DNA from: an uncultured Clostridia bacterium
GTDB taxonomy: Bacteria > Bacillota > Clostridia > Christensenellales > UBA1242
Assembly (NCBI GenBank): GCA_944349805.1
Contig: CALVNP010000039.1
Span: 1 to 38,889, forward strand
Length of the DNA: 38,889 bases
Direction of reading: 5' to 3'
In this document: positions 14,001 to 30,928 of the stretch, in pieces
Numbering within the stretch: the stretch's first letter is position 1
Layout: every line of letters begins with the position of its first letter
Position numbers and translations under genes: made by a program
Notes under the pieces: generated by a model
The model's database searches: none
What the model saw: only the letters and a program-made list of their open reading frames with translations
What the model was told of the DNA's origin: nothing

Positions 14001-17000
14001 AAGCCATTATTGTTATTATCAAAATTATCATCATTAATATTTTGTGTGTTTACAACATAAGTCAAATCATAAGGTGTAGCAGACCATTTTGCATAGAGTG
14101 TTATATTAGTTGCAGTTATTTGTTGATATTCTGCTTTATCATCATAAAGTTTTACACCTTCTCCATTAGGATTGCTATACCAACCATCAAATGTGTAACC
14201 ATTACATTTTGGTGTAATTAATGTTACTTTTCCATTAGATAAAATAGAATATGTTGCAATTGCATTAACACAAACCCAACCCGTACTTGCATCATAGGAT
14301 ACTGATGCATTAGGATTAAGGTAATTTGTAGCATCAAGTTTTAATTCATATGTTGTTCCTATAAGATAAATCTTTATTTCTACATTTGTATCTTGAACAG
14401 TGATATATCTATAAGCACCTGCACTTGTGTAATTTGCACCCGTTATTTCAATTCTATCCAAAGAATAGATAAGAGGATTTACTTCAAGTGTGATATTTTC
14501 TCCTGAAACAGCACTATATGAATATACTTGTTCTTTATTTAGACTATTTGTTGTTAAATTAAATATTCCGTCAATTTCAAATTCATTATTGTTAACATAA
14601 ATTGTTGTAGTAAGAATTAAACTTTTAATTTCCCAATTTGCATATAAGATTTCATCTTCTGCCCCTTGTACATAAAAGTTGCTAACATTATCTAAAATGC
14701 TTCCACCAAGTTCTCTACTCCAACCTTTAAATGTATAACCAACTCTCTCTGCGTCTGGAAGAGTTGCATTTGCATTGTACTTAACCTGCATAGGTTCTGG
14801 CAAGGTTATATCCTTAGCATCTACTCCATCTTCAACCCCATCATCAAATGTTAATGTGTAAACTTGTCTTCTTATTTTAATCTCAACAATATTACCATTA
14901 ACATTGCCAATAGGCATATTGAACGAATATGTATAACCCGTCTCATTACTATATATAAGTGATGAGTTGTTTCCAAAAATGAAATCGCTTTCTTGTGCAA
15001 TATAGCCTGAATTTAATACAAAATTTACTGTAACAAGTTCGTTATAATTTGCCCCATCTGTATGTGAATATGTAATTGAATTAAAAATATTTTCATATTC
15101 TTGACTACCTTGAAGTACAGTTGTAAAGTTGTCATCGTTTGCATTTTCAAGTTTAATATCATAGCTTAAATCATACTCAATATAACCCCAACGAGCATAA
15201 TATGTTGTCTCTGATGGTGTTAATTGTGTATATGTTGCTTCTATTATACTGTCGCCTTGTCCATTTTCTTCTGTACACCAACCCAAGAACTCATAACCAT
15301 CGCATTTTGGTGTAAGTAAACTAACTTGTCCTAATGAAGCAACCTTTACTGTTGCAATGTTTCCATTTACTGTATAACTACCCTGATTTTCAAATGTAAC
15401 AACTGCATCGGGATTTAAATAATTGCTTGCATTTAATGTGAAAGTATACTCGTCATCAATATAATAAACTTCAATAGTCAAATCTTGACTTGGCATTGTA
15501 ATATTAAAATTATAAGTTTTATACTCGCTTGTATTAACAACAGCTTTATCTAGTTTATAAACATCTTTTGTCAATACAATATTTAAAGATGCTTCTGATG
15601 GAATTAAATATGTATAAACACCGTTAACAAAACTTTGTGGTGAATAATTTTCCAAAACAAAATTCCAATCTGCTAAAACTTGAAGTCCATTAATATATTT
15701 CTTTAATGTTAAACTATATGCTTCTTTTGTCCATTTTGCATAATAAGTTGTTTGGTTTAAATCTTGTGTATGAGAAGTAACAATATCACCACTTCCATCA
15801 GCATTTAATGTCCAACCAAGGAAATCATAACCTGTTGTTCTTATTAAGGTTGGAAGTTGTTTTGTTTGACCAAACTTAACTTTAAATTCTGTTGGTAAAC
15901 CTTGAACATTATCCCCATTTGCATTTGCGTCCAAAATTACATCAAAAGACAATCTTGAAACATAGATATCTATATTAATATCACTGTCAGGTACTGAAAT
16001 AATGCTTGGAAGTGTTGTAATTGTATTTTCCTCAACTATAATTTTGCTAAATGTAAAACCACTTGCAATATTTAAATTAGTCAAATTAAATTCAATTGTT
16101 GAATTATATTCGTAATACTCATTGTAATTTCCAACAACATCAATTTTAGTTCCATTAATTATAATACTATAAGTTTGATTTACTGAAATTTCATATTCTT
16201 CATCGATGTTTTCAATATAATAATTTACTTGTACATTTAAAGTTTTAATTTCCCAAACTGCATACAAATTAAAGTCTGTATTATTTGGTGTATAAGTACT
16301 TTCTGTGTAATCAACAACATCTGAACTTTCTGTTGTAGACCAACCAACAAATTGATAACCATTTCTATAAGGTGTAATTAAATTAATTGGTTCAGTCTCT
16401 AAAGCTTTAACTGCGTAATTTAAGTCATCATTTATAACCCAGCCAATTTCAGACCCCACATTCCATCCATCAGCATTATCTGCAAATAATGTTATGGCAT
16501 AATTTATATCTTGAGTAAATGTGATAATAATTGTGCAGTCCTTATCTGGAAGATTAAAGTTTTGACTTTCAATATTTTCAAGTCCCTGAATACCTGTGAT
16601 TGATAAAATTTTGTATCCATCACTATTTATATTAAGGTTCATTAAGGTATTGTAATCATATTTTCCTGTACTTGTATAAATTCCCTCACCTTGACCACTT
16701 ACAACTTCTACATCACCACTTGAAATTTCAAAACTTGGTGTTGCTCCTGCAATTTCATCACCAAAAACAACAATTTCAACTGAAATGCTAAACTTATTGC
16801 TCCATATTGCTGTTAAAATTGAATTTCCTTTAATTTCATAAAGTGTTTCAGGAGCATATATTTCATCTGAGCTATAGCTCCATCCATCAAGATTAAATCC
16901 ACTTCTCTGAATGTATGGAAGCATAACACTTGCGCCATATTTAAATGTATTTGTCGCCTTATATATCCCGTCAGTCAATGTAAAATTCCAACCAGCAACA

Positions 17001-20000
17001 TAAGGTAAAGCATCAGAAGTATTTGCATTTAATGTCAATTCACAACTTGCTCTATCCAAGTAAATTGTTACAACAGTATTCAAGTTTTGAACTTCAAACT
17101 GATATTTTTCATAATAAGGAATTAAATTTAACACTTGTTCATTACATTTAACAGAATTTATAGTAAACGCAAATAAATTATAGGACAAGTTGGTTATATC
17201 AACCGTTGTACCAAAATCTACACTTCGCTCAAAATATGAATCCGTAAATGTTTGAGCATTGTAACTAATTGTAAAGGTTAAATCTTCTGAAAGCTCATAG
17301 ACATCATCGTTGCTTACAGATTGTGTTTTAACCTGAACAATTACAGAAGCTTGAAGTGGTGTCCAAACTGCATACAAAGTACAATCTGCTGGTTCTTGCC
17401 AAATTGTATCATTTGTATAGGAATTACCACTTCCATCTTGTTTTGTATTCCAAGAACTAAAAGTATAACCATTTTTTATTGGTTTTTCATTAAAAGTATA
17501 ATCATTATACCCAAAAGTAACTCTACCACTTAATTCTGATGCACCTGATAAGAATTGTCCACCATTTGCATTATATGTAATGTTAATTTGTTTTGGTTCA
17601 AAGTTTGCTGTAACAATAACATCAGAACTTACCATTGTAAATTTGTTGTTAAGAATTTTTAAACTTGTTGGATTAGTAGAATAATCTTTAAAATTATATC
17701 CAGCAGTTGCAGTAGGTACAAGTTCTACATTTTCACCATAAGTAACATTGCTTGTTAAATATAGTTCTTCATCTCCCACAACAGCTTGTAACGAACCATA
17801 AAGTGCGTTTGAAGAAACAAGTGTAAGACTATAATAATTTTTATATAGCAAATAAATAACGGTGTTAGATGTGATTCCACTTTGTATATCAAATTGATCA
17901 GTTAAATTCCAATTTTCATTTTGATTGTAATATCCAACAAAGGTGTATCCGTTTTTGCAATATAATTCTGGATTTACACTTTTAACCACATCACCATATT
18001 TAACGTTTTGTGATAAAGCTGATAAAGTTTGCCCCATATTATATACAACACTATTTCTATTGCCTGCCATTAAGGTTGCGCTATAATCAACAAAGCTAAC
18101 ATTAAATGTTTTTGTTTCCCAAATTGCAGTAAGTGTTGCATCACCACCATAATTCCAAGTAATAGGATTCTGTTGCCCAACTTTATAAGTATAAGTTTTT
18201 CCATTTACTAAAACTGTCCAACCTAAGAAATTATGACTATCACTGCTTAAACTTTGATATGTAAATAATGTTCCAGCTGTTATTTGACTTACGCCTTCTG
18301 AGTTCAACCAATCAACATTAACAACATTTTTGTCATCTCCACAAGGATTATCTTCATTAAAATTATAAGTAATGTTATATGTCTTTGCGCCCCAAACAGC
18401 TTCAAGTTCACAATTTAAATTTGGTTGAACATAATTTAACGATGACGAATCGTAAACAATTTCACCATCTTGTGCCCAACCTAAAAAGTCAAAGCCTGCT
18501 CTAAAATTAGATAAATCTGGTAAATCCAAACTATATCCAAATTTTATGCTTCTACTAGCAATATCATTAGTAAAACTCCATCCAAGTAAGCTTATAGTTG
18601 TTGAATTGTTTATATTTAAATCTAGTTGTAAAGTATAAGACAATCTTTCAACATAAATTATAACTTCCCCACCATTTAAAGGAACTTGTAAAGTATATAT
18701 TCCGTTGTCACCATTTAAAGTTGTTCCATTAAACGTGACTTGTCCTAAACTATAACCAGATGTTGCAACTATATTACTAATTGTTACAGCCGTTTTATAA
18801 TCAACATTTTGATTAAATGAAGTTAAATTGTTTTCAATATAAGTTGAGTAGGCAACGCTAAATGTTGTTTTGGTTTCTACATTTAAATCCTTATAAGAAG
18901 AATCCGTATCCTCATATAAAACTTTTACAGTTAGTTGATAAGGGATTGCTTTCCAAATTGCATATAGTGTTATTTCTTCCATACCATTTTGGGTATATGA
19001 AGTTGTATATTCAGCTTCATCGGAAGTTGGACTTGTAGAATATCCAATTAATTCATACCCAACTCTGTTTAAAACAGGTAGTGTTATTGTTTGACCAAAA
19101 TTAGCAGTAATTTCCGATGTTGGCATTCCTGTAACTATATCAGTAGTATTTTTATTTATGGTTAAAGCAAAATCTTTTCTAGAAAGATAAACATTGAGAT
19201 CGTCACCATCATTCATCATTATAAATTTAAATGGTAAAGAATTTGATATCTGTGTCCCATAAATTATAGAATAGACTTCATAACCTTCATTTATTTCTCC
19301 AGAAAGGGTTAAATTTGAATTATAAGCAAAATTTCCAACAAAAGTTGCAATTTCTTCGTTATTACCAACTGAAATTGTACCATCTGTTAAAGTTAATGTT
19401 GCAACGCTTAAAGATCTATAATTGTTTAAGTTTGTTTTATCGGCAGAATCTATACTCTCTGTGTAAATATTTACATTGATTTCATATTTAATTGATGTCC
19501 ATTGTGCATAAAGGGTTGCATTTTCTTTTATGATATCCCACATTGTTGATTTATTATACAACTTTCCACCAACTTCACTATCAAACCACCCAGCAAATGT
19601 ATATCCATTTTTTGATGGTGTAGGCATACCAGAAGTGTTGTTGTTACCATATACATATTCTGTCGTACCATACTTTACTTTGCCGTAATTATCACCAATG
19701 TTTGCAAAAGTTCCACCTGTCACATCGTACATGATGTTAGTTGTCATTCTGTCAAAATTTACAGATAATTCCAAATCATAATTTGGCATTGTAAATTCCA
19801 CTTGTGAAATTCCTGAAACATAATTTGGTAAACTTGTAATACTTAAAGGAGTATATCCATTATTTGAAGTTAATGCAACAACCACATCCCTACCATAAAC
19901 TACATCTTTTGTATGTAAGCTTTCATAATAATTATTAGTACTAGATGTCCCTATTTTTACAGAAACATACCCACCACTTGTATTTGAATTTTTTATAGTA

Positions 20001-23000
20001 AGTTCGTAATAATTTCTATAAACTAAGTAAATTGTTAGTTTACCATCAATCACTTTTTCATTTAAATTTGAAAGGGTTATATTTGGAAATTCACTGTAAA
20101 TTGTAGCTTCTTGAGATGGAACTTCCAACGAATATCCTACAAAACCTTGATAATAAACTTCGTTTGGCTTGTTCTCTTTTCTTGTTGGAATATTGTTAGC
20201 ATCAACGCCAAATGATGTTGATGTAAATGTTCCAAATGGCTGATTAAGATAAGTTGCTCCATTCTTTAAATAATTAAAACTATAAATATCTGAAATGTCG
20301 TTAAGGGAATTTACATATAGTATAGTTTCAACATTGAATTTTGAATTTTCCCAAACTGCCTTTAAAGTTGTACTTTCTTTTATAGTCCATTGTAATTCAC
20401 TACCAACACTTTTATTTTCTCCTGCAATTGTCCATTCTGTCAATGTATGACTAGCACTCATAACATTAGGAAGTACTAAAGTGTCAAGATATTGTATGCT
20501 GAATGTACCATTAGCATTTTTTGTTTTAACTATTGTCTCAATAGAATTATATGGTTTAATAGCAATTTCATTTAAGTCAACTATGTCTGTTACACTGTTA
20601 TTTTGATAATCAAATGTTATTTCATAAGAAACCCTTTCCCAAGTTGGATAAAGAATAAAATTGTCTGTTTTATCACAAATTGTTTGAGTGTCATAAACAT
20701 TACCGTCGCTATCTGTCCAATTTGCAAAAACATAACCATCATCTTGATGATAAGGTGTTGGCATTCCAGAAATACCATCATAATAATAATTAGAATGTAA
20801 ATATGTTACTGTTCCCGATTTTTCTGTAAGTGTTGTTCCATTATTTTCTTTAAAATAACAACCCGATTGCCCTTCTTGATTAGCTTTATATGTTATATTT
20901 ATTATCTTTTCAGTAAAGTATCCAATTATAGATAGACTTACATCAGGCATTGTGAATTTATAATCTTCTTTTATTATATCATAATAACTTGTTGGAATAA
21001 CTTGATATGAATTTAACCTATAACCATCATCAGGAGCAAATGTAATTTCATACTCTGTTCCATATGTTGCATTATATTTTTCTGTAACATTATTTATAGA
21101 AACTGTTCCATTTCCCCCTGAGCTTAAATTGACTAAATAGTGATTTTTATACAAGGCATAAACTGTTATAACTCCATCTGTTGCATTCGCATCACAAGCA
21201 GATATTTTATTTAATTCTCCAAAATTATCTTTTGTTGAGGAAGTTGGAGCAGATAAAGAATATCCAATAAGGGTATATCCTTTTTCATTGTATAATGCAA
21301 CGTCGCCTGCTTGAAGCACCCTATATCCAATTGTTGTTGATGATGTTGAAGAAAAAATTTCAACATATTCAAAATTTTCAGAACCATCACTGCTTTGTTC
21401 GTTATAGATAACAGTTTTAATCGTATATTGTTTTGCTTCCCATACAGCAGTGAATGTCATATTTTGAGTAAAATCCCAAACAATTTCTTGTTCAGCGTCA
21501 AATGTGAAAGAATTTCCATTGTATGTTGTAGTCCAATATAAAAAATTATGGCTATCACTGATTAATGTTGGGAATATATATTTAACTCCAGAAGTTATAG
21601 AATAAACCCCAGATGTTTTCCATTCACCATTTTGTACATCAGCAAAATTGGTTTCGTAGTTAATTGAATATTCATTTTCAACAATTTCCCAAACAGGATA
21701 CAGTTCATAATTTTGTTTCACTTCGGTTGAACTATTATAATTAACAGAATTAGAATCTTTTTCTGTACTCCAACCTTGAAAATTATAAGCATCTCTTTTA
21801 GAAGATGGAATGGTATCAACTGATTCACCAAATTTTACAGTTTTAGAATAAACATTGCCAGTGATCTTTTCGTCCTCCCAAGTTGGAAGATTAATCACTT
21901 CTTCGCCCATAGGGTACAAGTTAAAATTAACAGTAAAAGTTTTTAATTGAACATTAACAATTAATGATTTATTTTGTGCAGATAATAAATTCAAATATGA
22001 AAAATTAAGCGTATTGCCTGAAAGAGTGTCAAAACTTAAACTGATGGTATCAATTGCATTTTCTTCCTCTATAATGGAAACAGATATTGAATCACCATAT
22101 CTTAATGAAATTCTAGTTGAATTTATATTTGCAGGATCAATTAAAGAAGATATATGATTGCTTTCTCCGTCATTGTAGAAAGTCCTTGTTATTTCATACC
22201 TTAATGAAAAATAACTTGTATCTCCAATATTATTAAAACTTATTTCTTGCTCTTGAATTGCATATCCTATTTCAATTTTATATAAGCTGTTGTTAGAGTT
22301 TATATTTAAATAATCACACAACAAATCAACATTGCTTCCCTGTCCAATTTCTTCTAATTTTATCCCTTCAATTTCACTATAAATATTTTTTATAAAATAT
22401 GCTGTGCTAGAACTATAAATAGACTTTATACTGATTTTATAACCTGTTTTTACTATAATATTCTCTGTTAATTTTTCATAACTTCCAACACAAATGCCAT
22501 TTTGATTATACACTTCCACTTTATATTGTTGAAGTTTTTGATGTTCGTTGTATAAAGAACTTTCATTGTTAAACTTACCAATTTCATTTATATTTAAAGT
22601 AGCTGTATTTCTTGCAAGAGTTATTAAAAATGTTGTTTCTTCATTGATAATAGTTGCATAATTGTCATCAGCATTTAAACTTCCACTTCCATTTTCGATG
22701 CTTATAGATTTAACATAATAACCTTGTGGTATTTTATTAAAATAAAACCTTAATTCTGTTCCAACTTTTGCAGACTCTGTGTTGTATTCAAGTTTTCCTG
22801 TAAGTGCATTTTCGCTAACACTTGTGCCAAATACCAAACTTGTAAGTGTGTCATCAGAAACATCATCACCTTCAAGACCAACAATTTTATATGTTAAATC
22901 TTTAGAAGCTCTAGTTAAATAAACATTAATTGTTAAGTCGTCAGTAATAGCAATCGATGGTTGTATCTCTATCTCTGAACCATTTGTCCCAGTAATCTCG

Positions 23001-25465
23001 GAGCCATTATTGATAGAAAACTTATAATTGTTATCATAATGTAAGTCATACTCAACCACAAAAATTGAAAAATTATAATTATAATAAACATCTTCAAATA
23101 TTAATTGATTTCCATAGACAGTATCTGTAAACTCTCCTCCAACAGCAATATTAATACCATTATTAAAATCCTCATCTTTTGGCTTCCCTTCGTCATAAAT
23201 ATTAATTGTTATTGTAAGGGACTCACAACGAAATGCAGTATAAAATGACAATTCTTTATATCTTGTGTTACCATTTTGATTATAACTGTCAGTATTATAG
23301 GCATCAGAATCTTTTATCAAATAATAGATGTCATCAGTAGTAGCAGATGCTGAAGATAACATTGCAGAAGGAAAATCAGCAAAAGTATCATCTCTCTCAA
23401 TTGGATCAAAATTATCAATAGATGACCAACCAATTAATTGAAGTTTTTCACTCAACCCACTTGTGTTTATTGTTGGAAACAAACCACTATCTGAATCATA
23501 AGAATAAAAACTTTTATTATTAGATACAGCATCTTTTAATGTATTTGCATTTAAAGCAAATACTTTATTATATCTTCCAGTATTATCTATCCAATATGTA
23601 GTATCCGTTTGAGGTTCTACATCTACCACTGGATATTGTCCAGAATAAAAGTTAATTTTAGTTATATTTGTAAAATATAACATTATTGGAACATGAAAAT
23701 CATCTGAAAGTGTAAACTCAGTTGTTAAAGAATTTGTTTGGTAATCATAAGATAATGCCTCAGATTCACAAAAGTATTCTGCCAAGTAAGTGATATTATC
23801 TTGCTTAATTTCAAAACCAGTTATTGTATCATTAATTCTTAAATAAATTGTTATGACTTTGGTTTTGTAACTGTTTCCTGTATGTCCATCTTCAATTATA
23901 CATTTTCTGTAATTATAGCTATCGCCAGTTGAATGAGTGATTTCCCCATTTTCAAAATCATCAGAATTGGATCCACCACTTGTATAATTAATATTTGTTA
24001 TCAAATCATCATAACTATAATCTTTATTAGGTGCTATTAAATAAGAATGAACAACAACTTCTTGCAACTTATAATCAAAAACACCTTTTATATCAAAATA
24101 ACCCTGTCTTTCATTTGAAGTAAAGTTACTCATACCCGTTATTACTTCTGTGTTTAAACTTTCTGACACAGACTCGTTTTGATTATTGTTTAATTTCGAG
24201 TTGACCGCTTTTGGTGAAACAGAACAGTTGTTATTAAAAATAACATAACCAACCAATGTTGAATTTGAAGTAGAATATTGTAAAGTTAATGTGTCTATAT
24301 TTTCCCCAAGGTTGAATTTTTCTCCCACAAAAGCATTTGATGTGCCATTATAATACAAGCTTCCTAACTCCGTTGATGGGGTATAAACTTCCGTGTCGTT
24401 GTATTGACTATAATTTACGTCTAATTCTTTTATTTCAGTTTTTGCTGAATATGTTTGACCATCAACAAACACATTGCCAACACCCCTTAAATACACACCA
24501 GAATCATCAACATACCAAATTTTATAACCATCACCATCTGTTATACCATTTAGGAGTTCCTTCAACTCATCTATTGTCTTTGATGCATTGTTTATATCAT
24601 AGTATACATCTCCAATTTTTCTTATACAATCTGTTCCACCCCCAGAAGATGAAATTTTAATGTCAGTTTCACTCTCAGCATAACAATTAGAAATAACTGC
24701 ACCACCCCCTGTTATCAAACCAGTATTTGTTGCAGATAATATTTTAACATTAGAAAAGCAGGTCGATATATAAGTCTGCCAAGCTGCAGAACCTACAATA
24801 CCACCAGCATAAGATGTTGAACTTAAAACACCCGTGACATAACAACTAGATATTTCAGAAGTTTTATCAGATGATCCCATAGATTGTCCTGCAATAATTC
24901 CCGAAGAAGTTGTACCTATAACCGTTGCACCTTTCACCTGGACATTAAAAATTTTTGCTTCAAATATTTGTCCAAATAAACCAAAATAAGAAGCTCCCGT
25001 TACAATTCTATAATCAGTATATAAGTTTGAAATCGTATACCCATTTCCATCAAAACTCCCCATAAAACTTGCAGCGGCTGCACCAATTGGAACCCAAATT
25101 TTTCCAGACAAATCTATATTGGCAGTTAAAATATAATTTTTAAAAGTATAATACTTTTCGTCTGTGTCTTTTTCCCCGTTATTAACATTTTTTGCAAGTA
25201 AGGCAAGTTGCTCAGCTGAGTTGATTTGATATGGTTTAGCTTCAGTTCCGTCACCCCCAGCAAAGCTTGTTGCAACAGCAAGTGGTGTGTATTCCACATT
25301 ACTTAAATCTTCAATAACCAAATCACTTATTTCCGAAGTTTTTATGTTTTCAGCGTAAGCCGTTTTAACATTGCTCATAAAAAATCCAAGCAATGCTGTC
25401 AGGACAAAAAACGCCAAAACACCAGCTTTGAAAATATTGATATAAGAGATTTTATTCTTTTGCAT
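8048..25465 (-). CDS. Giant InlB-repeat surface protein, membrane anchored (5805 aa)
   Basis: The protein is probably exported and displayed on the cell surface. Residues 1-38 are a signal peptide with a likely cut at AYA/EN. Residues about 69-270 form a GLUG-like beta-helix module (GDGTEAKPYQI, then SFDGNGYTISNL, FGLFG and GGIVG-like turns). From about residue 1200 to 5400 the body is a chain of some 25 Listeria/Bacteroides B-repeats (consensus GYxFxGW ... LYAxW). These alternate with divergent InlB B-repeats, which end in FTMPxxDxxVxxxF. A second GLUG-like module is at about 5640-5765. It is followed by one membrane helix (LWIVLGVLGGIALITIVLIV) and the basic tail NQRRKN. No LPXTG is seen. 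The start is set by AGGAG at 25472-25478 and the signal peptide. Repeats of this kind are known in Listeria internalins and many gut bacterial surface proteins. Adhesion is the likely role but is inferred. The 17.4-kb frame has no break. Confidence 0.9.
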   Translation of the reverse strand: MQKNKISYINIFKAGVLAFFVLTALLGFFMSNVKTAYAENIKTSEISDLVIEDLSNVEYTPLAVATSFAGGDGTEAKPYQINSAEQLALLAKNVNNGEKDTDEKYYTFKNYILTANIDLSGKIWVPIGAAAASFMGSFDGNGYTISNLYTDYRIVTGASYFGLFGQIFEAKIFNVQVKGATVIGTTSSGIIAGQSMGSSDKTSEISSCYVTGVLSSTSYAGGIVGSAAWQTYISTCFSNVKILSATNTGLITGGGAVISNCYAESETDIKISSSGGGTDCIRKIGDVYYDINNASKTIDELKELLNGITDGDGYKIWYVDDSGVYLRGVGNVFVDGQTYSAKTEIKELDVNYSQYNDTEVYTPSTELGSLYYNGTSNAFVGEKFNLGENIDTLTLQYSTSNSTLVGYVIFNNNCSVSPKAVNSKLNNNQNESVSESLNTEVITGMSNFTSNERQGYFDIKGVFDYKLQEVVVHSYLIAPNKDYSYDDLITNINYTSGGSNSDDFENGEITHSTGDSYNYRKCIIEDGHTGNSYKTKVITIYLRINDTITGFEIKQDNITYLAEYFCESEALSYDYQTNSLTTEFTLSDDFHVPIMLYFTNITKINFYSGQYPVVDVEPQTDTTYWIDNTGRYNKVFALNANTLKDAVSNNKSFYSYDSDSGLFPTINTSGLSEKLQLIGWSSIDNFDPIERDDTFADFPSAMLSSASATTDDIYYLIKDSDAYNTDSYNQNGNTRYKELSFYTAFRCESLTITINIYDEGKPKDEDFNNGINIAVGGEFTDTVYGNQLIFEDVYYNYNFSIFVVEYDLHYDNNYKFSINNGSEITGTNGSEIEIQPSIAITDDLTINVYLTRASKDLTYKIVGLEGDDVSDDTLTSLVFGTSVSENALTGKLEYNTESAKVGTELRFYFNKIPQGYYVKSISIENGSGSLNADDNYATIINEETTFLITLARNTATLNINEIGKFNNESSLYNEHQKLQQYKVEVYNQNGICVGSYEKLTENIIVKTGYKISIKSIYSSSTAYFIKNIYSEIEGIKLEEIGQGSNVDLLCDYLNINSNNSLYKIEIGYAIQEQEISFNNIGDTSYFSLRYEITRTFYNDGESNHISSLIDPANINSTRISLRYGDSISVSIIEEENAIDTISLSFDTLSGNTLNFSYLNLLSAQNKSLIVNVQLKTFTVNFNLYPMGEEVINLPTWEDEKITGNVYSKTVKFGESVDTIPSSKRDAYNFQGWSTEKDSNSVNYNSSTEVKQNYELYPVWEIVENEYSINYETNFADVQNGEWKTSGVYSITSGVKYIFPTLISDSHNFLYWTTTYNGNSFTFDAEQEIVWDFTQNMTFTAVWEAKQYTIKTVIYNEQSSDGSENFEYVEIFSSTSSTTIGYRVLQAGDVALYNEKGYTLIGYSLSAPTSSTKDNFGELNKISACDANATDGVITVYALYKNHYLVNLSSGGNGTVSINNVTEKYNATYGTEYEITFAPDDGYRLNSYQVIPTSYYDIIKEDYKFTMPDVSLSIIGYFTEKIINITYKANQEGQSGCYFKENNGTTLTEKSGTVTYLHSNYYYDGISGMPTPYHQDDGYVFANWTDSDGNVYDTQTICDKTDNFILYPTWERVSYEITFDYQNNSVTDIVDLNEIAIKPYNSIETIVKTKNANGTFSIQYLDTLVLPNVMSASHTLTEWTIAGENKSVGSELQWTIKESTTLKAVWENSKFNVETILYVNSLNDISDIYSFNYLKNGATYLNQPFGTFTSTSFGVDANNIPTRKENKPNEVYYQGFVGYSLEVPSQEATIYSEFPNITLSNLNEKVIDGKLTIYLVYRNYYELTIKNSNTSGGYVSVKIGTSSTNNYYESLHTKDVVYGRDVVVALTSNNGYTPLSITSLPNYVSGISQVEFTMPNYDLELSVNFDRMTTNIMYDVTGGTFANIGDNYGKVKYGTTEYVYGNNNTSGMPTPSKNGYTFAGWFDSEVGGKLYNKSTMWDIIKENATLYAQWTSIKYEINVNIYTESIDSADKTNLNNYRSLSVATLTLTDGTISVGNNEEIATFVGNFAYNSNLTLSGEINEGYEVYSIIYGTQISNSLPFKFIMMNDGDDLNVYLSRKDFALTINKNTTDIVTGMPTSEITANFGQTITLPVLNRVGYELIGYSTSPTSDEAEYTTSYTQNGMEEITLYAIWKAIPYQLTVKVLYEDTDSSYKDLNVETKTTFSVAYSTYIENNLTSFNQNVDYKTAVTISNIVATSGYSLGQVTFNGTTLNGDNGIYTLQVPLNGGEVIIYVERLSYTLQLDLNINNSTTISLLGWSFTNDIASRSIKFGYSLDLPDLSNFRAGFDFLGWAQDGEIVYDSSSLNYVQPNLNCELEAVWGAKTYNITYNFNEDNPCGDDKNVVNVDWLNSEGVSQITAGTLFTYQSLSSDSHNFLGWTVLVNGKTYTYKVGQQNPITWNYGGDATLTAIWETKTFNVSFVDYSATLMAGNRNSVVYNMGQTLSALSQNVKYGDVVKSVNPELYCKNGYTFVGYYNQNENWNLTDQFDIQSGITSNTVIYLLYKNYYSLTLVSSNALYGSLQAVVGDEELYLTSNVTYGENVELVPTATAGYNFKDYSTNPTSLKILNNKFTMVSSDVIVTANFEPKQINITYNANGGQFLSGASELSGRVTFGYNDYTFNEKPIKNGYTFSSWNTKQDGSGNSYTNDTIWQEPADCTLYAVWTPLQASVIVQVKTQSVSNDDVYELSEDLTFTISYNAQTFTDSYFERSVDFGTTVDITNLSYNLFAFTINSVKCNEQVLNLIPYYEKYQFEVQNLNTVVTIYLDRASCELTLNANTSDALPYVAGWNFTLTDGIYKATNTFKYGASVMLPYIQRSGFNLDGWSYSSDEIYAPETLYEIKGNSILTAIWSNKFSISVEIVVFGDEIAGATPSFEISSGDVEVVSGQGEGIYTSTGKYDYNTLMNLNINSDGYKILSITGIQGLENIESQNFNLPDKDCTIIITFTQDINYAITLFADNADGWNVGSEIGWVINDDLNYAVKALETEPINLITPYRNGYQFVGWSTTESSDVVDYTESTYTPNNTDFNLYAVWEIKTLNVQVNYYIENIDEEYEISVNQTYSIIINGTKIDVVGNYNEYYEYNSTIEFNLTNLNIASGFTFSKIIVEENTITTLPSIISVPDSDINIDIYVSRLSFDVILDANANGDNVQGLPTEFKVKFGQTKQLPTLIRTTGYDFLGWTLNADGSGDIVTSHTQDLNQTTYYAKWTKEAYSLTLKKYINGLQVLADWNFVLENYSPQSFVNGVYTYLIPSEASLNIVLTKDVYKLDKAVVNTSEYKTYNFNITMPSQDLTIEVYYIDDEYTFTLNASNYLNPDAVVTFENQGSYTVNGNIATVKVASLGQVSLLTPKCDGYEFLGWCTEENGQGDSIIEATYTQLTPSETTYYARWGYIEYDLSYDIKLENANDDNFTTVLQGSQEYENIFNSITYSHTDGANYNELVTVNFVLNSGYIAQESDFIFGNNSSLIYSNETGYTYSFNMPIGNVNGNIVEIKIRRQVYTLTFDDGVEDGVDAKDITLPEPMQVKYNANATLPDAERVGYTFKGWSRELGGSILDNVSNFYVQGAEDEILYANWEIKSLILTTTIYVNNNEFEIDGIFNLTTNSLNKEQVYSYSAVSGENITLEVNPLIYSLDRIEITGANYTSAGAYRYITVQDTNVEIKIYLIGTTYELKLDATNYLNPNASVSYDASTGWVCVNAIATYSILSNGKVTLITPKCNGYTFDGWYSNPNGEGVKLYDDKAEYQQITATNITLYAKWSATPYDLTYVVNTQNINDDNFDNNNNGLNSIKLQIFNEDEGAWIDVNGLEPFSIGYNSEIRYVIKLNEGFDLNYSNISGLTSGKFNFDEDSYTLKFTMPNQNTEIVFNITRKVYTLTYVNGNNNVEVAMPESINLKFEQQIILPELTADGCEFVGWNSSQDGTGTQYVGTFTQGNDNTTLYAIWEISSYNLQINIKGLNDLIIELDKISFVLTDNLGNEVLKSDGVNTTFTDLVQFGTELTLTINAGSYYEVYLIEGIDGDSDVLTFKMGPTDKTIDITFKAKEFTLTLDASTSLILDYEIDWSNADDWNVSDNVITKSLNYNDVVNSFPIPSISGLVFQGWYTKLNGEGEEVTSYTQMYDTDTTLFAKYSLDTFNITIDIKTEDVQNDTFLENSDGLQEIRFEIYNSENQTWEDAEFTNGSVNNIEYLQQARFVLTLKDNFELKLENIIADELNGSTFNNGNVYYFEFVMTNVDAKITFNISRTRYSLIFDKNTSDSVTGLPETIQLKVGQTYIVPDITLQRKGYNFLDAWAINNSGTMILAGATYTQTAQNTTLYAQWQAISYNLTYELDGGSPEQTATTITYEDNIILPGNVSKDGYTISKWVIRADSVECDFINGNSLRSIENKYSIDLVGDYVTTFTLSPIWQSGENTFTLNSMLDETLYSENGLSINTRPGNVQFTFYVNNVESTNFISHTGDVVKVSAVAPAGYRVKEWQIENATQINPDGDKSVVEITNFTSNIDVIVVLEPIELEITVNGNNGTLEFASGVYNVVSNKATTLTGVKVELNIKSIKGYVFDNVTASEQNVNISIDKGNDKVYVSEFTTNLELQSEFIARVNTVKISGNNIEKIRYQVVSDVNDLTDVFNTYNSKGISATINDIILLEIKMLEGYSIVAISNEGYEFNVNYPYNENTERALIDNINEDTIIQIDTKINEYSISASVIGGDEFGSVQISGNANENDKYNYGTEVTFTATSAKDGEDEKYDFIGWFEDETCEVLYSNENPKTISVTSNLHLYAKFQIKEFTVKYQLSDDCYNFGYFEGNTSQTVTFGANAEQVTTLPNAGYNFVHWEIYYGNEINAVINTNAVLNISDVRSNVTCVAVFEKMDITITINTTIEGTLISDGIEKVSIKYQSGAIGESISTDECLSMTLNAKTNTDITISATAKDGYTLGEYTPVYVVSGNVSVIISGNEFIINAKENNSVVSINFGKKNNVINSTLEIDGENGGGVIRYQEGGVWQHIGPTYTTNMKTESSLTYKVFVYAGYVLGTDLQDFVDNGTYNSGNYNLTISTSTDYTGLDSAYFTSVYDVTISGYKTDIDIVIPIERVKTIVTFHNVELNDPSKTFTASIAYGTTIISGVTSEQLCPTSETYMFVGWENELGYMVIDSSGNLKSKWLITDKTYDLYGVWQERLLQIIVEVDPIYALQSASTLYKTVFANSFIYGLQPEEMVQNGNILYFTRPLSKLYLTLPKYKSGYIFDGFYLKNPTTDEYEKVGQASDGASDYATSTNCLLNIKGYSYYTNYQNQSEDGTIIIKLSFKVVTSISAENFYASNRVSEVGGTVKFVDLPSVVNGSIISVETNTNTLVKMIATPNKGYEFVKWVDENGEEISLSPELEINVSQSKHYTAIFKGELILITSDYNVEVQNGNPELVSAETYYHVGDIIKFKFNDKVVGYEHTNWMLYNDGVEISLITGVNPTYTLTADYKNIKVNPTFTMASVKVQIIMSGQGEGDGTIKFASGWTIDYNKRNNTYELTIPYETNLEFNIVPNVRYKFDNATVKYGNGTQNVVEVQNNLFKINYIDYNDVRTIQININLIENYWREYVLENGQIIDDGDGTYSVNPNGGDFIGDGTEEYPYEINSINDISKLAFIINNNIKQNNNQKAEYANAIYELNQNINFEERFWTPIGTKTNPFKGTFYIRGDRNNIFVNDDDPLYPSDENFAIDEDYYTLYGKLFGYLDGAKIIVEQQSLLVLWIVLGVLGGIALITIVLIVISNQRRKNITREKTVIK
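8090..8170 (-). other. C-terminal membrane anchor of the 5805-aa protein
   Basis: This stretch encodes the hydrophobic segment starting LLVLWIVLGVLGG and running into ISNQRRKN. The positive charges after the helix predict a cytoplasmic tail and an extracellular repeat body. Confidence 0.8.
8170..8553 (-). other. C-terminal GLUG-like module of the 5805-aa protein
   Basis: The segment has GDGTEEYPYEINS, then WTPIGTKTNPFKGTF, then YGKLFGYLDGAKI. It parallels the N-terminal module (GDGTEAKPYQINS, WVPIGAAAASFMGSF, FGLFGQIFEAKI) step by step, but is shorter. It sits just before the membrane helix. Confidence 0.75.
9230..21900 (-). repeat. InlB-type B-repeat array within the 5805-aa protein
   Basis: About 25 modules carry the GYxFxGW and LYAxW hallmarks, alternating with divergent B-repeats. 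A higher-order period of roughly 1.1 kb (about 360-375 residues) is visible. The YRNYYELTI-type junction recurs near 21140, 20015 and 17838. The TPKCxGYxFxGW segment recurs near 15310 and 14200. Copies have diverged strongly at DNA level, so this is an old expansion and not a recent tandem duplication. Confidence 0.8.
24656..25261 (-). other. N-terminal GLUG-like beta-helix module of the 5805-aa protein
   Basis: Residues about 69-270 show the pattern GDGTExxPYxI, then GSFDGNGYTISNLY, and glycine-rich turns such as SGIIAGQS and AGGIVGSA. This is typical of right-handed beta-helix or GLUG regions in secreted proteins. Confidence 0.7.
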
Positions 25466-25531: not shown

Positions 25532-25553
25532 TTATTTTGCTCAATTTTACAAA

Positions 25554-25582
25554 AAAAACAAGCTTTGAAAAAGCTTGTTTTT
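25554..25582 (-). terminator. Intrinsic terminator of the Rho-like gene
   Basis: A 12-bp perfect stem, AAAAACAAGCTT / AAGCTTGTTTTT, has a 5-base loop and an A-run on the + strand that gives the U-tract on the minus-strand transcript. Its ascending arm overlaps the stop codon of the Rho-like gene. It insulates the giant gene downstream, which has its own promoter. Confidence 0.85.
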
Positions 25583-26657
25583 ACATATAATTTATATCAA
25601 TATTTTCACTTGTTCCACAAAGCAATGAAACACAACCACCACCCACTAAACTTCTGTTTACGCTAAATAGTTTTCGCATTATTAAAAGTGTGTTATAGTT
25701 AGGATTTTGATTGACTACGCTCTCTTCAAAATACACCTTTAATTCAGATATAAGAGTGGAAACATCAAAAACAAATAAAAGCACCTTACTTCCAGATCTC
25801 GCCAATGAAATTGAATTATTAATTGAATCAAGAGAAATTTCAAATGATTCTTTAGGCCCATCTTCATAAAAGCTTATAAATTCTATATGTTCTACATCAT
25901 CAAACGAAGACTTGATTTTTAATATAAGTTCTGGAACTAATCCAACTGCTAAAAAGTTTATAATATATCCATTTTCAGAATAATTTTTCAAAATTGAATG
26001 TGTTTCATTTATATATTGTGTTAAATCATCAATTTTAATAAACTTTCTTATTCCATCTAAAGCATTTGATGATGTCCTAATATTCAAAAAAGCAGTTAAT
26101 TCTCTTTTATTAATTTCAAATTTTTTATAGTTTAGTTTTTCCAAAATATAAAATACATCAAACGGCTTATCTTGAATTTGCCAAGCACCACCCTGCAGTA
26201 AATCGCCTTCTATAAGCTTACATTCTGCAATAAGATTTGATGGAACAAAAACTAAGTTTTCGCCGTCTTTAAAAAAATATGCCCCACTTTTTGTTTTTCT
26301 TAAAAAGCCCTGCCTTTCAACTCTAATCTTCCCATCAAACCTTGAAAGGTCAAGTTCTTGTCTAAACATCAAGCTTTCATCAGCATACACCCTTTCTTTT
26401 TCTTCTTTTGCATAATCTATAAAATCTTGTGGGACAAAAACATCCATAACGGATGTATCAAGTTTTGTTGTCTTGGGAGGTCTACCCACTTTTTTTATTG
26501 GAGAAGCATCTTTAACGCCGTCCATAATTTCAGTTATAGCATCTAATAGCTGTTGTCTTTTTAGTGTTGTAGGAGAAGAAACACCTACATTCCTTGCAAG
26601 TGTTCTCAACTCATATATACCCATCATTTCTATTGTTTTTTTTGTTGCTTCTTCCAT
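25581..26657 (-). CDS. Rho-derived protein lacking the P-loop (358 aa)
   Basis: Residues about 13-45 resemble the Rho N-terminal domain (YELRTLARNVGVSSPTTLKR, then LLDAITEI). They are followed by an AT-hook-like GRPPK. Residues about 112-160 resemble the Rho cold-shock-type RNA-binding domain (GFLRKTKSGAYFF ... VFVPSNLI ... GDLLQG). The rest can be laid on the Rho ATPase core. RSGSKVLLFVFDVSTLI matches the Walker B region (gkDVvillDSiTRL), and FSVNRSLVGGGCVSLL matches FgaARnieeGGSLTii. Where Rho has GxxxxGKT this protein has only a P-loop-less stretch around IRKFIKIDDL. It ends soon after the GGG motif, well short of a normal Rho C-terminus. It is therefore likely a non-catalytic Rho relative; an RNA-binding or regulatory role is inference. 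Family assignment rests on motif order by eye. It stands alone, between ypeB and the giant gene. Confidence 0.7.
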   Translation of the reverse strand: MEEATKKTIEMMGIYELRTLARNVGVSSPTTLKRQQLLDAITEIMDGVKDASPIKKVGRPPKTTKLDTSVMDVFVPQDFIDYAKEEKERVYADESLMFRQELDLSRFDGKIRVERQGFLRKTKSGAYFFKDGENLVFVPSNLIAECKLIEGDLLQGGAWQIQDKPFDVFYILEKLNYKKFEINKRELTAFLNIRTSSNALDGIRKFIKIDDLTQYINETHSILKNYSENGYIINFLAVGLVPELILKIKSSFDDVEHIEFISFYEDGPKESFEISLDSINNSISLARSGSKVLLFVFDVSTLISELKVYFEESVVNQNPNYNTLLIMRKLFSVNRSLVGGGCVSLLCGTSENIDINYM

Positions 26658-26671
26658 AATTCGTACAAATT

Positions 26672-26700
26672 ATTATATAAATGATTTCTATAATTGTCAA
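26672..26700 (-). promoter_or_regulatory. Perfect consensus sigma-A promoter of the Rho-like gene
   Basis: On the minus strand: TTGACA (26700-26695), 17-base spacer, TATAAT (26677-26672). Only 14 bases separate the -10 box from the ATG, so the predicted start near 26665 leaves a leader of about 8 bases (UACGAAUU) with no Shine-Dalgarno sequence. Confidence 0.85.
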
Positions 26701-26733: not shown

Positions 26734-28086
26734 CTACATTAACAAGTTGCCGTTGTCAGTGTTTACAACCTTTAAAATATTTTCTTCAACACCATTAAGT
26801 GCATTAATGTAAACATAATAAGTGCTTCCTTCCATATTACAAGTAAATTCATAGCAAAGAACTTCTCTGTCGTATTCAAGTGGAATAAGAGCTAATTTAC
26901 ATTCTTTAATTTTTAAAGAAGAATTTACCATTTGTCTAGCAGAACTTTCAGACAACCTTGCCGGTAAAATTTTTCTTTCAGTATGGTTCATATAGTACGA
27001 TGAAGCTTCATATCCTAAAACATCACCTTTGTCCAAATCAACTTTAACTTTTATTAAATCAGGATATATGATAACTCCACTAATTTTAGGTGCTAAATTT
27101 ATATAAGCATCGTCACCTACTATGTCACTCCATACAACTGTAACATCATTGATTCCATTTCTGTTTACAAAATCTATTGCAATTTTTTCAGCATTTGCAA
27201 GTTCAATTTTTTTATTGTTGTAAATATTTGGACAACTCAATGTAAGTAGTTTACCCCCTTTCTTAGTCATTTGTGCAAATATATATTTTCCTTCATCATT
27301 TTGATAAGTAAAATCATATGTTTGAAAATGTCCATTACTTTCACCACTAAAATTTAAATCCTCAGCAGGAATATCTGTTAAAATTTTTCCGAGATTGTTT
27401 TTAGCAACTTCCATACTAACATCGGTAAAATTAAGCCCTTTTACTTCTTTGTTTAGTTGAGAATCTGAAAATGGCCCATCATAAATCATTGTGGGATACT
27501 CAACATCAGCTCCATTCATAGCCGTAAGCTTTCTTGTTAAATAATTATAATCACCGTCCATTTTTAAACTAGAATCTGTAATGCTATAACCATCCCACAT
27601 TTGTTTTGACATTGTGTTCAAGTATTTTTTAATATCCACAACTGAATTGTGGACTTTTTCTAATGTTGCCACATTATCATTACTCAAACTCTTCCCATTA
27701 TCTAAATTCTGAGCCAATGTTTCCGTGTAACCACTTAACTTATTTACAAAAGTTATTGTGTCAGACAAACCACTTATAGAATAGGGTAACATATTTAATC
27801 TTGTCTGTGCTTCATTTGCGTTTTTACTTACTTCTTTTAATAATTTTGCTCTGTATTCATTACTATTTGAAACTAAAATTTTATTTAATTTTGTTTCTGC
27901 ATTGTTTACTTCATCAACAAGCTCATAAAAATTCTTTTGATATACATTTTCTAATGATGTTTGATATTTAATACTTGAACTAATACTAATTCCGTATAAA
28001 ATACCAAGTGTTATAACTGCAATTGATAAAATTATTGTAGCAATAGTAAGTGCCCTATTTGTTTTTTTTACTTCTACCGTTTCCAT
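26734..28086 (-). CDS. ypeB: Spore germination protein YpeB
   Basis: YpeB is required for correct placement and stability of the cortex-lytic enzyme SleB in the spore. The 450-residue length matches the family. There is an N-terminal membrane anchor (about residues 12-34, IATIILSIAVITLGILYGI), then a helical region (FYELVDEVNNAETKLNKIL onward). The C-terminal half has PepSY-like repeats, for example IAIDFVNRNGINDVTVV and SSARQMVNSSLKIKECKLA. The start is firm: AGGAGG at 28091-28096 overlaps the stop codon of sleB upstream, which predicts translational coupling. No convincing hairpin with a U-tract follows; only a weak 7-bp stem overlaps the next promoter. Confidence 0.93.
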   Translation of the reverse strand: METVEVKKTNRALTIATIILSIAVITLGILYGISISSSIKYQTSLENVYQKNFYELVDEVNNAETKLNKILVSNSNEYRAKLLKEVSKNANEAQTRLNMLPYSISGLSDTITFVNKLSGYTETLAQNLDNGKSLSNDNVATLEKVHNSVVDIKKYLNTMSKQMWDGYSITDSSLKMDGDYNYLTRKLTAMNGADVEYPTMIYDGPFSDSQLNKEVKGLNFTDVSMEVAKNNLGKILTDIPAEDLNFSGESNGHFQTYDFTYQNDEGKYIFAQMTKKGGKLLTLSCPNIYNNKKIELANAEKIAIDFVNRNGINDVTVVWSDIVGDDAYINLAPKISGVIIYPDLIKVKVDLDKGDVLGYEASSYYMNHTERKILPARLSESSARQMVNSSLKIKECKLALIPLEYDREVLCYEFTCNMEGSTYYVYINALNGVEENILKVVNTDNGNLLM

Positions 28087-28094
28087 ATATCCTC

Positions 28095-28754
28095 CTATAT
28101 CGCAAATACGTGTTTCCCTATTGTTACAACAACTTGTCTAGAATATATCCACTGACTTGTTGCCGTAACAGGATTGTAATAATACAAACAACCATATGTT
28201 GGATCCCAACCATTTAAAGCATCTTTTGCAGCTTGATATGCTGTATCGTTGGGTTCTAAATTAATTTGCCCATCGTGCACAGCAGTGAATGCCCAAGGTT
28301 GATAGATCACACCAGAAATGGTATTTGGAAATTCAGGAGACTCAACTCTATTTAGAATAACTGCAGCAACTGCGACTTGTCCTACATAAGGTTCTCCCCT
28401 TGCCTCAGCATATACACATTTTGCAAGTAGATATAAATCTGAACTTGATTGACTTGTACTGTTAGACACCCCCAATGCCCCTAAAGTTTCAGGGCCCACA
28501 ATTCCATCAACACTCAGTCCATAATCCCTCTGAAAATTAATTACAGCACTTCTTGTTAACGGACCATAAATTCCGTCAATATTACCTGTATAATAACCCA
28601 AATCTTTAAGTCTAGATTGAACACTTTTATTTGTAGACGCAGTTGCAACTTGCACGACATCTGAATTATTATTTAGTATAAAATATGTAGAAAAGCCACC
28701 AACTAAAATAAATGCTAAAATTAAAAAAGAAATTATAAATAATTTACTTTTCAT
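28095..28754 (-). CDS. sleB: Spore cortex-lytic enzyme SleB
   Basis: SleB is a lytic transglycosylase that cleaves cortex peptidoglycan during germination. The 219 residues contain an N-terminal hydrophobic signal or anchor (about 5-28) and a PG_binding_1 domain (about 44-95, with LKDLGYYTGNIDGIYGPLT and VDGIVGPETLGAL). A SleB/Hydrolase_2 catalytic domain follows (about 105-219), with the hallmark CVYAEARGEPYVGQVAVAAV containing the catalytic Glu. The start is supported by GGAGG at 28761-28765. It forms an operon with ypeB, eight bases apart, as in Bacillus. The expected control is sigma-G in the forespore. Confidence 0.95.
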   Translation of the reverse strand: MKSKLFIISFLILAFILVGGFSTYFILNNNSDVVQVATASTNKSVQSRLKDLGYYTGNIDGIYGPLTRSAVINFQRDYGLSVDGIVGPETLGALGVSNSTSQSSSDLYLLAKCVYAEARGEPYVGQVAVAAVILNRVESPEFPNTISGVIYQPWAFTAVHDGQINLEPNDTAYQAAKDALNGWDPTYGCLYYYNPVTATSQWIYSRQVVVTIGKHVFAI

Positions 28755-28776
28755 TAATTACCTCCATTTTTATTGC

Positions 28777-28807
28777 TATTTTTACAAAAAATAATATTTT
28801 TTATTCA
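28777..28807 (-). promoter_or_regulatory. Candidate sigma-G promoter of sleB-ypeB
   Basis: On the minus strand: TGAATA (28807-28802), 18-base spacer, AAAAATA (28783-28777). The -35 fits the sigma-G pattern TGmATA well, but the -10 matches CATAmTA in only 5 of 7 positions. The location just upstream of the GGAGG site and the known sigma-G control of sleB support it. Confidence 0.35.
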
Positions 28808-28862
28808 TAAAAAAATGTTTTTTAAACAAAATTTAGTCAATAAATATTTGCAAGGAGATAAA

Positions 28863-29384
28863 ATGAAATATTTAATTGGAATATTTTGTATTTTAGGAAT
28901 TTTATTTATTTTAATTTTTAGTCCATTAAAAACAGGAGCAAATAGTGAATATTTAAGAATACATATAAGAGCAAATTCCAATTCTGAAATTGACCAATCA
29001 ATAAAATATCAAATAAAAGATGAAATAGTTGACGCATTGATTCCTCTTTTATCAAATTGTAAAAGCAAAGATGAATCTTCTAAAATCATAGAAAATAATT
29101 TTGAATACATTGAAGGAATAGCAAATAAAATATTAGAAGAAAATAATTTTAATTACAAAAGTAAAGCAAAATTAAGCTATGAAGAGTTTCCAACGAGAGC
29201 TTATGGAGATTTGGTTTTAAATGCTGGATTTTATGATGCATTAATTCTAGAATTAGGAGAAGCTAAAGGAGATAATTGGTGGTGCGTTGTTTATCCTCCA
29301 CTTTGCTTTGTAAATGGTTCTAGCAGTGTAAATGGTTTTAAAAGTAGAATTTTAGAAATAATAAATAATTTTTTTAATAAATAA
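28863..29384 (+). CDS. spoIIR: Stage II sporulation protein R
   Basis: SpoIIR is secreted from the forespore and triggers SpoIIGA to process pro-sigma-E in the mother cell. The chosen start at 28863 gives 173 residues. It has AAGGAGA at 28852-28858 and an immediate hydrophobic signal segment (MKYLIGIFCILGILFILIF). An upstream in-frame ATG at 28773 lacks a ribosome-binding site and adds a basic extension unlike the family. Family hallmarks are YLRIHIRANSNSEIDQSIKY near the mature N-terminus, YEEFPTRAYGDLVLNAGFYD, and the terminal GDNWWCVVYPPLCF. It is divergent from sleB across about 108 bases. Sigma-F control is expected, but I could not define the promoter boxes with confidence. Confidence 0.95.
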   Translation: MKYLIGIFCILGILFILIFSPLKTGANSEYLRIHIRANSNSEIDQSIKYQIKDEIVDALIPLLSNCKSKDESSKIIENNFEYIEGIANKILEENNFNYKSKAKLSYEEFPTRAYGDLVLNAGFYDALILELGEAKGDNWWCVVYPPLCFVNGSSSVNGFKSRILEIINNFFNK

Positions 29385-29409
29385 AAAATGAGTTTTAAAC
29401 TCATTTTTT
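29383..29409. terminator. Shared bidirectional terminator between spoIIR and the sipL-like gene
   Basis: The inverted repeat AAAAAATGAGTTT / AAACTCATTTTTT overlaps the stop codons of both convergent genes. A- and T-runs on each side allow termination in both directions. Confidence 0.85.
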
Positions 29410-30928
29410 ATTTATTTTTTTGATAATAAATTGTTAAATTAGTATTATTTTCCAAAATATCGGGAGCAGTGACATTTTGTTCTTTTAACACATCTAAGGA
29501 TATATTTAATGATTTTGCAATATCCCATAATTTATCTCCTTCTTTTCCAAAATAAATTTCAATGGCACAGTCGCGTTCTGGTAAATCTTCTCCTATTGCT
29601 ATATCAGTTATAACTGCATCTGTTTCTTCAGTGTAACATTTTACATTAGCTTTAATTTTAGCGTCGAAGTATAGTTCCCTACCTCGCTTTACAATAACAT
29701 CAACATCATCAATGATTTGATTTACTTCAATTTCGCAACCTTCCTTATTGCTTGTTTTTTCTGAAATAGTGAATGGGACTTCAACTTGAATTGAATTGGT
29801 AGTCATTTCTTCATCATTTAAATAGATTACATTTGTATATGCAACACCTTCAACAAAAACTTCTCCTTCCTTAATATATGAGTTTGTACTAAGAACATAA
29901 GGTGAAGAAATAGCTAAAATTTTATCCACTCTTGGTTGTGTTTCTGAAAGTGTTAAACTCCCCTCAATTTTACTTTCAAAATATTCAAGTTCTCCAAAAT
30001 TAAGCCTTTTAAAAGATTCTGTTACAATTTCAATATTATTTGTTAATGAATAAATATCTTCTGTACAACTTACATAGCTCTGATCATAAGCATAAATTTC
30101 CACTTTGCTAGGAATATTTAATTTAAGAATAGATGCCCCATCTTGTTCAACCACTTCATATTTCATTAAATCCTTTCTTACTTGCAAAGATATATCTATT
30201 TGAGATTCCTGATTGACTCCCGTGGCCTCCAATTCTCTTTTAAAAGTTTCATTGTTAGTTAATGTTGTAATCTTACCTGTTTCCGAATCAGACAAAAGCA
30301 TTATCTTTGTAATTATTTCACCTGTTATACTTACAAAATTTACACCTTGCAATGTGTCTTTTATAATAATATCTGAATCAACACTTATTATTTTTTCAAA
30401 TTTTTCTTTTAATTGAACATTAATTTCTTCTTCAAAATCTTGATTTTCACAACAAGCTAGAGATGTCACTTTCATTTCTGTTGAACTTAAACACAATGTT
30501 TCATCTCCACCACACAGAACTGATAAGTCTTCTTGTTTAATGAGTGTATATTGCAGTTCAATTACAGAAGTAATTTTAATGTTATTTTCACTTAAAACAA
30601 CAGCATTAGCATCAATAAGTTTTGAACAAACATTCACTTTGTTGGAAGGGTCAATTGAATTATTTGAATACTTACTTGAAAAATCGCAAGTGGTGTCACG
30701 ACACAAAATTTGATTTTCAGTGGTCATATAAACAAGTTTAACGGCCAGCTTTCCAACAACATTAACCTCCCCCATAAGAACTTCAATGTTTTCTACTATA
30801 GGATACACACAATAAGATAAAAGCTTAGAAACTTGTTCATCTAGATTAACAGAACATTCAGCTGAAATTTGTTCAACTCCCAACTTACACTTATTAACCA
30901 TACCTATCGTATTTTTTTCTATTGCCAT
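29408..30928 (-). CDS. sipL: SPOCS/LysM spore coat protein, SipL-like
   Basis: The 506 residues resemble SipL of Clostridioides difficile, which binds SpoIVA and tethers the coat to the forespore. The body has repeated SPOCS (DUF3794) modules. Their hallmarks are VNVVGKLAVKLVYMTTENQ near residue 55, LQGVNFVSITGEIITKIML near 200, and VEGVAYTNVIYLNDEEM near 360. The C-terminus is a LysM domain (about 455-503, with GDKLWDIAKSLNISLDVLKE). GGAGG at 30933-30937 supports the start, with a rather short 4-base spacer. A candidate sigma-E promoter lies upstream, which fits mother-cell expression. The symbol rests on architecture, not on a database match; another SPOCS-LysM coat protein is possible. Confidence 0.85.
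   Translation of the reverse strand: MAIEKNTIGMVNKCKLGVEQISAECSVNLDEQVSKLLSYCVYPIVENIEVLMGEVNVVGKLAVKLVYMTTENQILCRDTTCDFSSKYSNNSIDPSNKVNVCSKLIDANAVVLSENNIKITSVIELQYTLIKQEDLSVLCGGDETLCLSSTEMKVTSLACCENQDFEEEINVQLKEKFEKIISVDSDIIIKDTLQGVNFVSITGEIITKIMLLSDSETGKITTLTNNETFKRELEATGVNQESQIDISLQVRKDLMKYEVVEQDGASILKLNIPSKVEIYAYDQSYVSCTEDIYSLTNNIEIVTESFKRLNFGELEYFESKIEGSLTLSETQPRVDKILAISSPYVLSTNSYIKEGEVFVEGVAYTNVIYLNDEEMTTNSIQVEVPFTISEKTSNKEGCEIEVNQIIDDVDVIVKRGRELYFDAKIKANVKCYTEETDAVITDIAIGEDLPERDCAIEIYFGKEGDKLWDIAKSLNISLDVLKEQNVTAPDILENNTNLTIYYQKNK

Follow-up and report, generated by a model that had tools for sequence, protein, structure and literature searches.

A motor-dead descendant of the termination factor Rho is retained across a family of tiny-genome Clostridia

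The window, the whole 38,889-nucleotide stretch of DNA analyzed here from an uncultured Clostridia bacterium, carries a rho-derived open reading frame (ORF) with an ATG start (Table 1). The plus-strand frame across the same interval contains 28 stops. An assembly or frameshift artifact was ruled out, as the ORF is open in many independent assemblies. The predicted promoter matches at 12 of 12 positions in three other genomes of the genus as well (G005, G004, and G001), and matches of at least 10 of 12 were found for 27 of 67 upstream regions of the family versus 24 of 340 control stretches inside genes. A leader of just a few nucleotides would result. At the other end of the gene, the RNA fold of positions 25545 to 25590 gave −13.8 kcal/mol (z = −4.4), as for a strong terminator.

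Table 1. Features at the rho-like locus of the window
Feature	Position	Strand	Basis or remark
Intrinsic terminator (AACAAGCTTTTTCAAAGCTTGTT + T run), directly after stop codon	25550..25579	-	sequence
Motor-dead Rho descendant, CDS, 358 aa	25581..26657	-	translation, family profile, fold model
RecA-like core without nucleotide site, residues 204-350	25608..26048	-	C-terminal profile, fold model
Former Walker B strand, residues 291-298	25764..25787	-	Asp moved one place, to S266 position
Former P-loop position, residues 210-217	26007..26030	-	K181/G183/K184/T185 replaced by L/Q/Y/I
OB fold (primary RNA-binding site region), residues 111-185	26103..26327	-	Rho_RNA_bind, E 0.0081; pLDDT about 90-96
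GRPPK linker motif, residues 58-62, AT-hook-like GRP core	26472..26486	-	sequence
Rho_N helical (SAP-like) domain, residues 5-48	26514..26645	-	Pfam Rho_N; best-conserved part in the family
Predicted perfect sigma-A promoter, TTGACA-17-TATAAT, 14 nt before ATG	26672..26700	-	sequence
ypeB	26734..28086	-	TIGR02889, E 5.2e-93; upstream neighbor
sleB (spore cortex-lytic enzyme)	28095..28754	-	TIGR02869, E 3.9e-80; conserved neighbor
spoIIR	28773..29384	+	Spore_II_R, E 8.2e-43; conserved neighbor
SipL/SPOCS-domain protein	29408..30928	-	PF12673, E 1e-11; conserved neighbor

The gene order SipL-domain protein, spoIIR, sleB, ypeB, and rho-like gene is common to the window, most of g1, and many other family genomes; in these, and in the f9 genome G031, ypeB lies upstream. 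The 926-kb genome contains spoIIR, sleB, ypeB, and a SipL-domain gene (26734-30928), together with a SpoIIIAA-like gene (G000:C55:72572-72697). A complete sporulation set would make this genome strikingly small for a spore former. On the other side of the rho-like gene, positions 8048-25465 of the minus strand form one ORF of 5805 aa, signal-like at its N terminus and with a membrane segment at its C terminus; the product is a repetitive surface protein of giant size. In L093 and L094 the rho-like gene likewise adjoins a related giant ORF.

The sequence-only reading had recognized by eye the domain order of a Rho protein, and this order (Rho_N, GRPPK, OB fold, RecA-like core) proved to be real. 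It is supported by the following data. Pfam Rho_N matched residues 12-42 (E 4.9e-4) and Pfam Rho_RNA_bind also matched (E 0.0081), both under the Pfam gathering score, while the TIGR00767 rho model matched residues 7-185 (E 2.5e-5) with 23.3 bits, the NCBIfam equivalog cut-off of 509.45 not being reached. Rho_N was found by Pfam in 46 of 59 family members, and the AlphaFold2 (AF2) model of the window protein has helices at residues 3-45. No match was obtained by phmmer for the window protein against PDB sequences or by profile searches for its C-terminal half as a single sequence. A profile of that half built from six genus members, with the N terminus excluded, aligned to residues 263-376 of complete Rho (E 3.3e-5), and the 59-member family profile aligned to complete Rho over 445 columns (hhalign, E 3.2e-62). 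The linker reads KKVGRPPK, a GRP core flanked by basic residues that resembles an AT-hook and may bind DNA. The GRP core is present in 58 of 68 family members versus 7 of 12 complete Rhos of the order.

The AF2 models were single chains, and that of the window protein, computed from the 59-row family alignment, had a mean pLDDT of 85 and a pTM of 0.72. Among the 50 matches listed by Foldseek against the PDB, all were Rho (best E, 1.7e-14). The top VIA-align match was Mycobacterium tuberculosis Rho (7oqh; Z 21.2, 2.9 Å, 239 residues), and the remaining rows, at Z values of about 18 and lower, were type-III, flagellar, and F1/V-type ATPases, which belong to the same fold superfamily as Rho. The comparison with M. 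tuberculosis Rho indicates that the RecA-like core fold is present in the model. The Rho chain was matched only up to E. coli residue 338, confirming the earlier remark that the protein stops soon after the GGG region. High-confidence OB and RecA-like core models were also obtained for a 300-aa member from f1g11, among the most degenerate and shortest of the family. On the profile and fold-model evidence, the window ORF is a genuine descendant of Rho.

The GxxxxGKT loop had been read as missing, and the alignment agrees, with Walker A replaced at the P-loop position (Table 1). The position of the catalytic glutamate (E211) is occupied by L240. The strand LLFVFDVSTLI had been taken as Walker B-like; here, however, F297 aligns with D265 and D298 with S266. 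Since the Asp is one place off D265, Walker B is not kept. Of 67 family members, 36 have an Asp at this shifted position. The window protein also lacks the Q-loop motif and stops short of the R-loop and the Arg finger (R366). Across the family, the catalytic glutamate was retained in 5 of 68 sequences and R366 in none. In the survey of relatives for P-loop loss, three members, all from f1g2 (L034, L037, and L038), were noted with an intact-looking GxxxxGK[ST] loop (GPKGSGKT, GEKGSGKS, and GPKKSGKT, respectively). These same three have DKRPE instead of DERPE, which changes the catalytic Glu to Lys, and have no Arg finger; nucleotide may be bound by them but not hydrolyzed.

As judged from the alignments and the model, the window protein has lost the residues that bind and hydrolyze ATP, the central-channel loops that grip RNA, and the Arg finger, and it should therefore be unable to translocate RNA or to strip transcripts from RNA polymerase by motor action. 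By descent and predicted fold it belongs to the Rho family, but it would not qualify as an ATP-dependent termination factor, with RNA-dependent ATPase and termination activity both predicted to be absent. The suggestion that the RNA-binding parts are kept stood only in part. Rho_N and GRPPK are conserved, but of the OB contacts F64 is kept, R66 and Y80 are changed conservatively to K and F, and the aromatic F62 is lost (A126). The RNA-contact residues of this classical primary site are not conserved family-wide, so RNA binding is not assured and persistence of Rho's pyrimidine preference is not claimed.

The occurrence of the gene was examined in 197 genomes of the family of the window, which are tiny-genome Clostridia and mostly draft assemblies. 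With complete Rho defined by the TIGR00767 cut-off of 509 bits, no complete rho was found in the genome of the window (98.7% complete) or in the 197 family genomes, where the top score was 191 bits. The same search across the order placed 144 of 248 genomes above the cut-off, and it therefore detects complete Rho where present; complete-like Rhos of the order, decayed lineages apart, mostly scored 440 bits or more. A second weak Rho match in the genome of the window resembles SpoIIIAA by eye. No Rho homologue other than the window gene was found in this genome.

The motor-dead form was found with its own profile in 183 of the 197 family genomes and in 127 of the 132 of high quality, with all 42 counted genera represented. 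By this profile, no copy was found in 14 of the 197, among them the same-genus genome G002 (96% complete), where protein and family searches gave none either and where the cause may be gene loss or an assembly gap. The protein may thus not be strictly required. NusG is present in nearly all sampled family genomes. Among 299 genomes spread over the phylum, few of them from the class of the window, the best matches listed fell at two levels, that of near-complete Rho and that of F1-type ATPases, with hardly any in the gap, from which a retained decayed Rho is deduced to be unusual. Short Rho_N-only ORFs of 108-141 aa were also observed (L032 at G010:C15:16474-16719; G001:C45:3360-3524; G003:C81:3355-3636; G015:C36:4672-4848), each coexisting with a longer motor-dead copy in the same genome.

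Against the nearest relative (93% identity), dN/dS was 0.044 overall and 0.056 in the core (Nei-Gojobori, with dS near 1). This strong purifying selection, together with the gene's own promoter, predicted to be strong and vegetative, argues that the gene has a function. The distribution of conservation proved particularly informative. For complete Rhos of the order, mean pairwise identity was 30% in Rho_N plus GRPPK, 43% in the OB fold, and 75% in the core, whereas for the family, represented by one member per genus, the corresponding values were 43%, 21%, and 17.5%. Conservation in the aligned sequences is thus inverted, the part lowest in working Rhos being highest in the family, and this shift to Rho_N and GRPPK is the main pointer to function.

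In the f9 genome G031 (L113), spoIIR, sleB, and ypeB precede a Rho of full length whose P-loop is broken (PPKTDPTT). Since these neighbors are common to the window and G031, the window gene is inferred from synteny to occupy a rho locus that is ancestral for this part of the order. Rhos of nearly full length (about 507-681 aa) in which the P-loop, the catalytic motif, or both are broken were found in other families of the order (L240 in G331, L241 in G272, L243 in G289, L242 in G413, and L029 in G031) and are earlier stages of the same decay. Within f15/g32, the species G037 and G426 have a complete Rho, and the Rhos of G334, G346, G357, G378, and G406 are without the catalytic Glu and in part without the P-loop; G037 and these five decayed species share the same upstream neighbors and an obg-like gene downstream. 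A graded series of Rho decay was seen in f4, with further decayed copies in f32, f29, and f30. Decay of this kind also arose independently in other parts of the order; the tree, built in quick mode and with long branches, needs five changes, and the starred branches force at least three.

The best explanation for these data, to which we assign a probability of roughly 0.6, is that the protein has ceased to be a translocase and binds nucleic acid independently of ATP in a new function. A narrower alternative, possible but clearly less probable, is that it is mainly a DNA-binding protein of the nucleoid type, in which Rho_N (SAP-like) and GRPPK grip AT-rich DNA and the dead body only oligomerizes. 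This would fit the superior conservation of Rho_N and GRPPK, the weak Pfam match to the Fan1 SAP subdomain (E 0.03), and the coding GC of the window (29%). The net charge of the protein is −7, however, and the complete Rhos of the order already have both GRPPK and Rho_N, which need therefore not be DNA-specific. Rather unlikely is a remaining role in termination or pausing, whereby the protein would bind RNA polymerase (RNAP) with NusG or NusA and trap or slow the elongation complex without ATP, keeping the pre-translocation part of Rho action. In E. coli, Rho needs ATP to release the transcript, and the OB surface diverges in the family; on the other hand, NusG is kept, and structures have been solved for pre-termination complexes of Rho, RNAP, and NusG (6xas and 6xav).

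Decay to a pseudogene in reduced genomes is disfavored and very improbable. The core diverges fast between genera (17.5% identity), the protein is shortened in several of them, and some genomes are without a copy, but the frame is open in 183 of 197 genomes and in all 42 genera counted. The dN/dS of 0.044 and the perfect sigma-A promoter, conserved in the genus, also led to rejection of this reading. Least probable of all is antagonism of a complete Rho or the formation of mixed hexamers with it. The Rho-like fold and the kept N-terminal and OB parts would have suited such a role, and both forms of it had been proposed in the sequence-only reading; they fail because no complete rho was found in this genome or in the 197 sampled genomes of the family. 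Of the roles proposed there, a regulator with a new role survives and is the best reading.

Compared with Rho (TIGR00767; Pfam Rho_N, Rho_RNA_bind, and ATP-synt_ab), the window protein is alike in domain order, OB and RecA-like fold, single copy, and a locus shared with the full-length Rho of G031. It differs in having no Walker A, catalytic Glu, Walker B Asp, Q and R loops, or Arg finger, in ending at E. coli residue 338, and in its inverted conservation. M. tuberculosis Rho has the closest solved fold but is still described as an NTPase (PMC4167861, PMC4499133, PMC8828861), with reportedly poor NTPase and helicase activity (PMC8828861), unlike the window protein with no nucleotide site. Loss of Rho is already known, from Bacilli (PMC13323073) and cyanobacteria (PMC13289151). 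As in those lineages, no Rho motor activity would be expected here; there the gene is absent, whereas here a motor-dead protein is retained under selection. Coding-strand purine bias is much weaker in rho-less Bacilli (PMC13323073). When samples of at most 20 kb were compared between the family, genomes with complete Rho, and other genomes with decayed Rho, no loss of this bias was detected in the family at third (p = 0.49) or fourfold (p = 0.89) sites; its overall purine content was higher, but the GC contents are unequal (33% versus 51%). What appears to be new is that a family keeps a motor-dead Rho: no earlier description of this, or of a retained P-loop-less Rho, was found in the open-access literature searched, which is not proof of absence.

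For the preferred reading, that of an ATP-independent nucleic-acid-binding protein, we hypothesize that nucleic acid or the transcription complex would be contacted chiefly through the Rho_N/GRPPK module, and that the OB fold and the empty RecA-like core would serve as a scaffold for oligomerization or for residual RNA or RNAP contacts. Candidate binding targets are RNA, AT-rich DNA, and RNAP. The protein would act by occupancy rather than translocation, by coating nascent RNA or AT-rich DNA or staying bound to RNAP, and intrinsic terminators would be where most transcription in these cells ends.

Rho is the textbook RNA-translocating motor. In this one order, the ring motor has probably been converted in situ, repeatedly and convergently, to an ATP-independent nucleic-acid-binding protein and been fixed as the only Rho of a many-genus family, as a non-motor regulator whose new function is centered on Rho_N. 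A large clade that keeps the protein without the motor separates Rho's moving from its binding, and its members are natural separation-of-function variants. The series available in related species, from complete Rho through full-length proteins with a broken P-loop and forms without P-loop and Arg finger to truncated proteins, provides a system for following the passage from motor to non-motor. It also raises the question of how, with no Rho motor, genomes of about 1 Mb cope with termination and antisense transcription.
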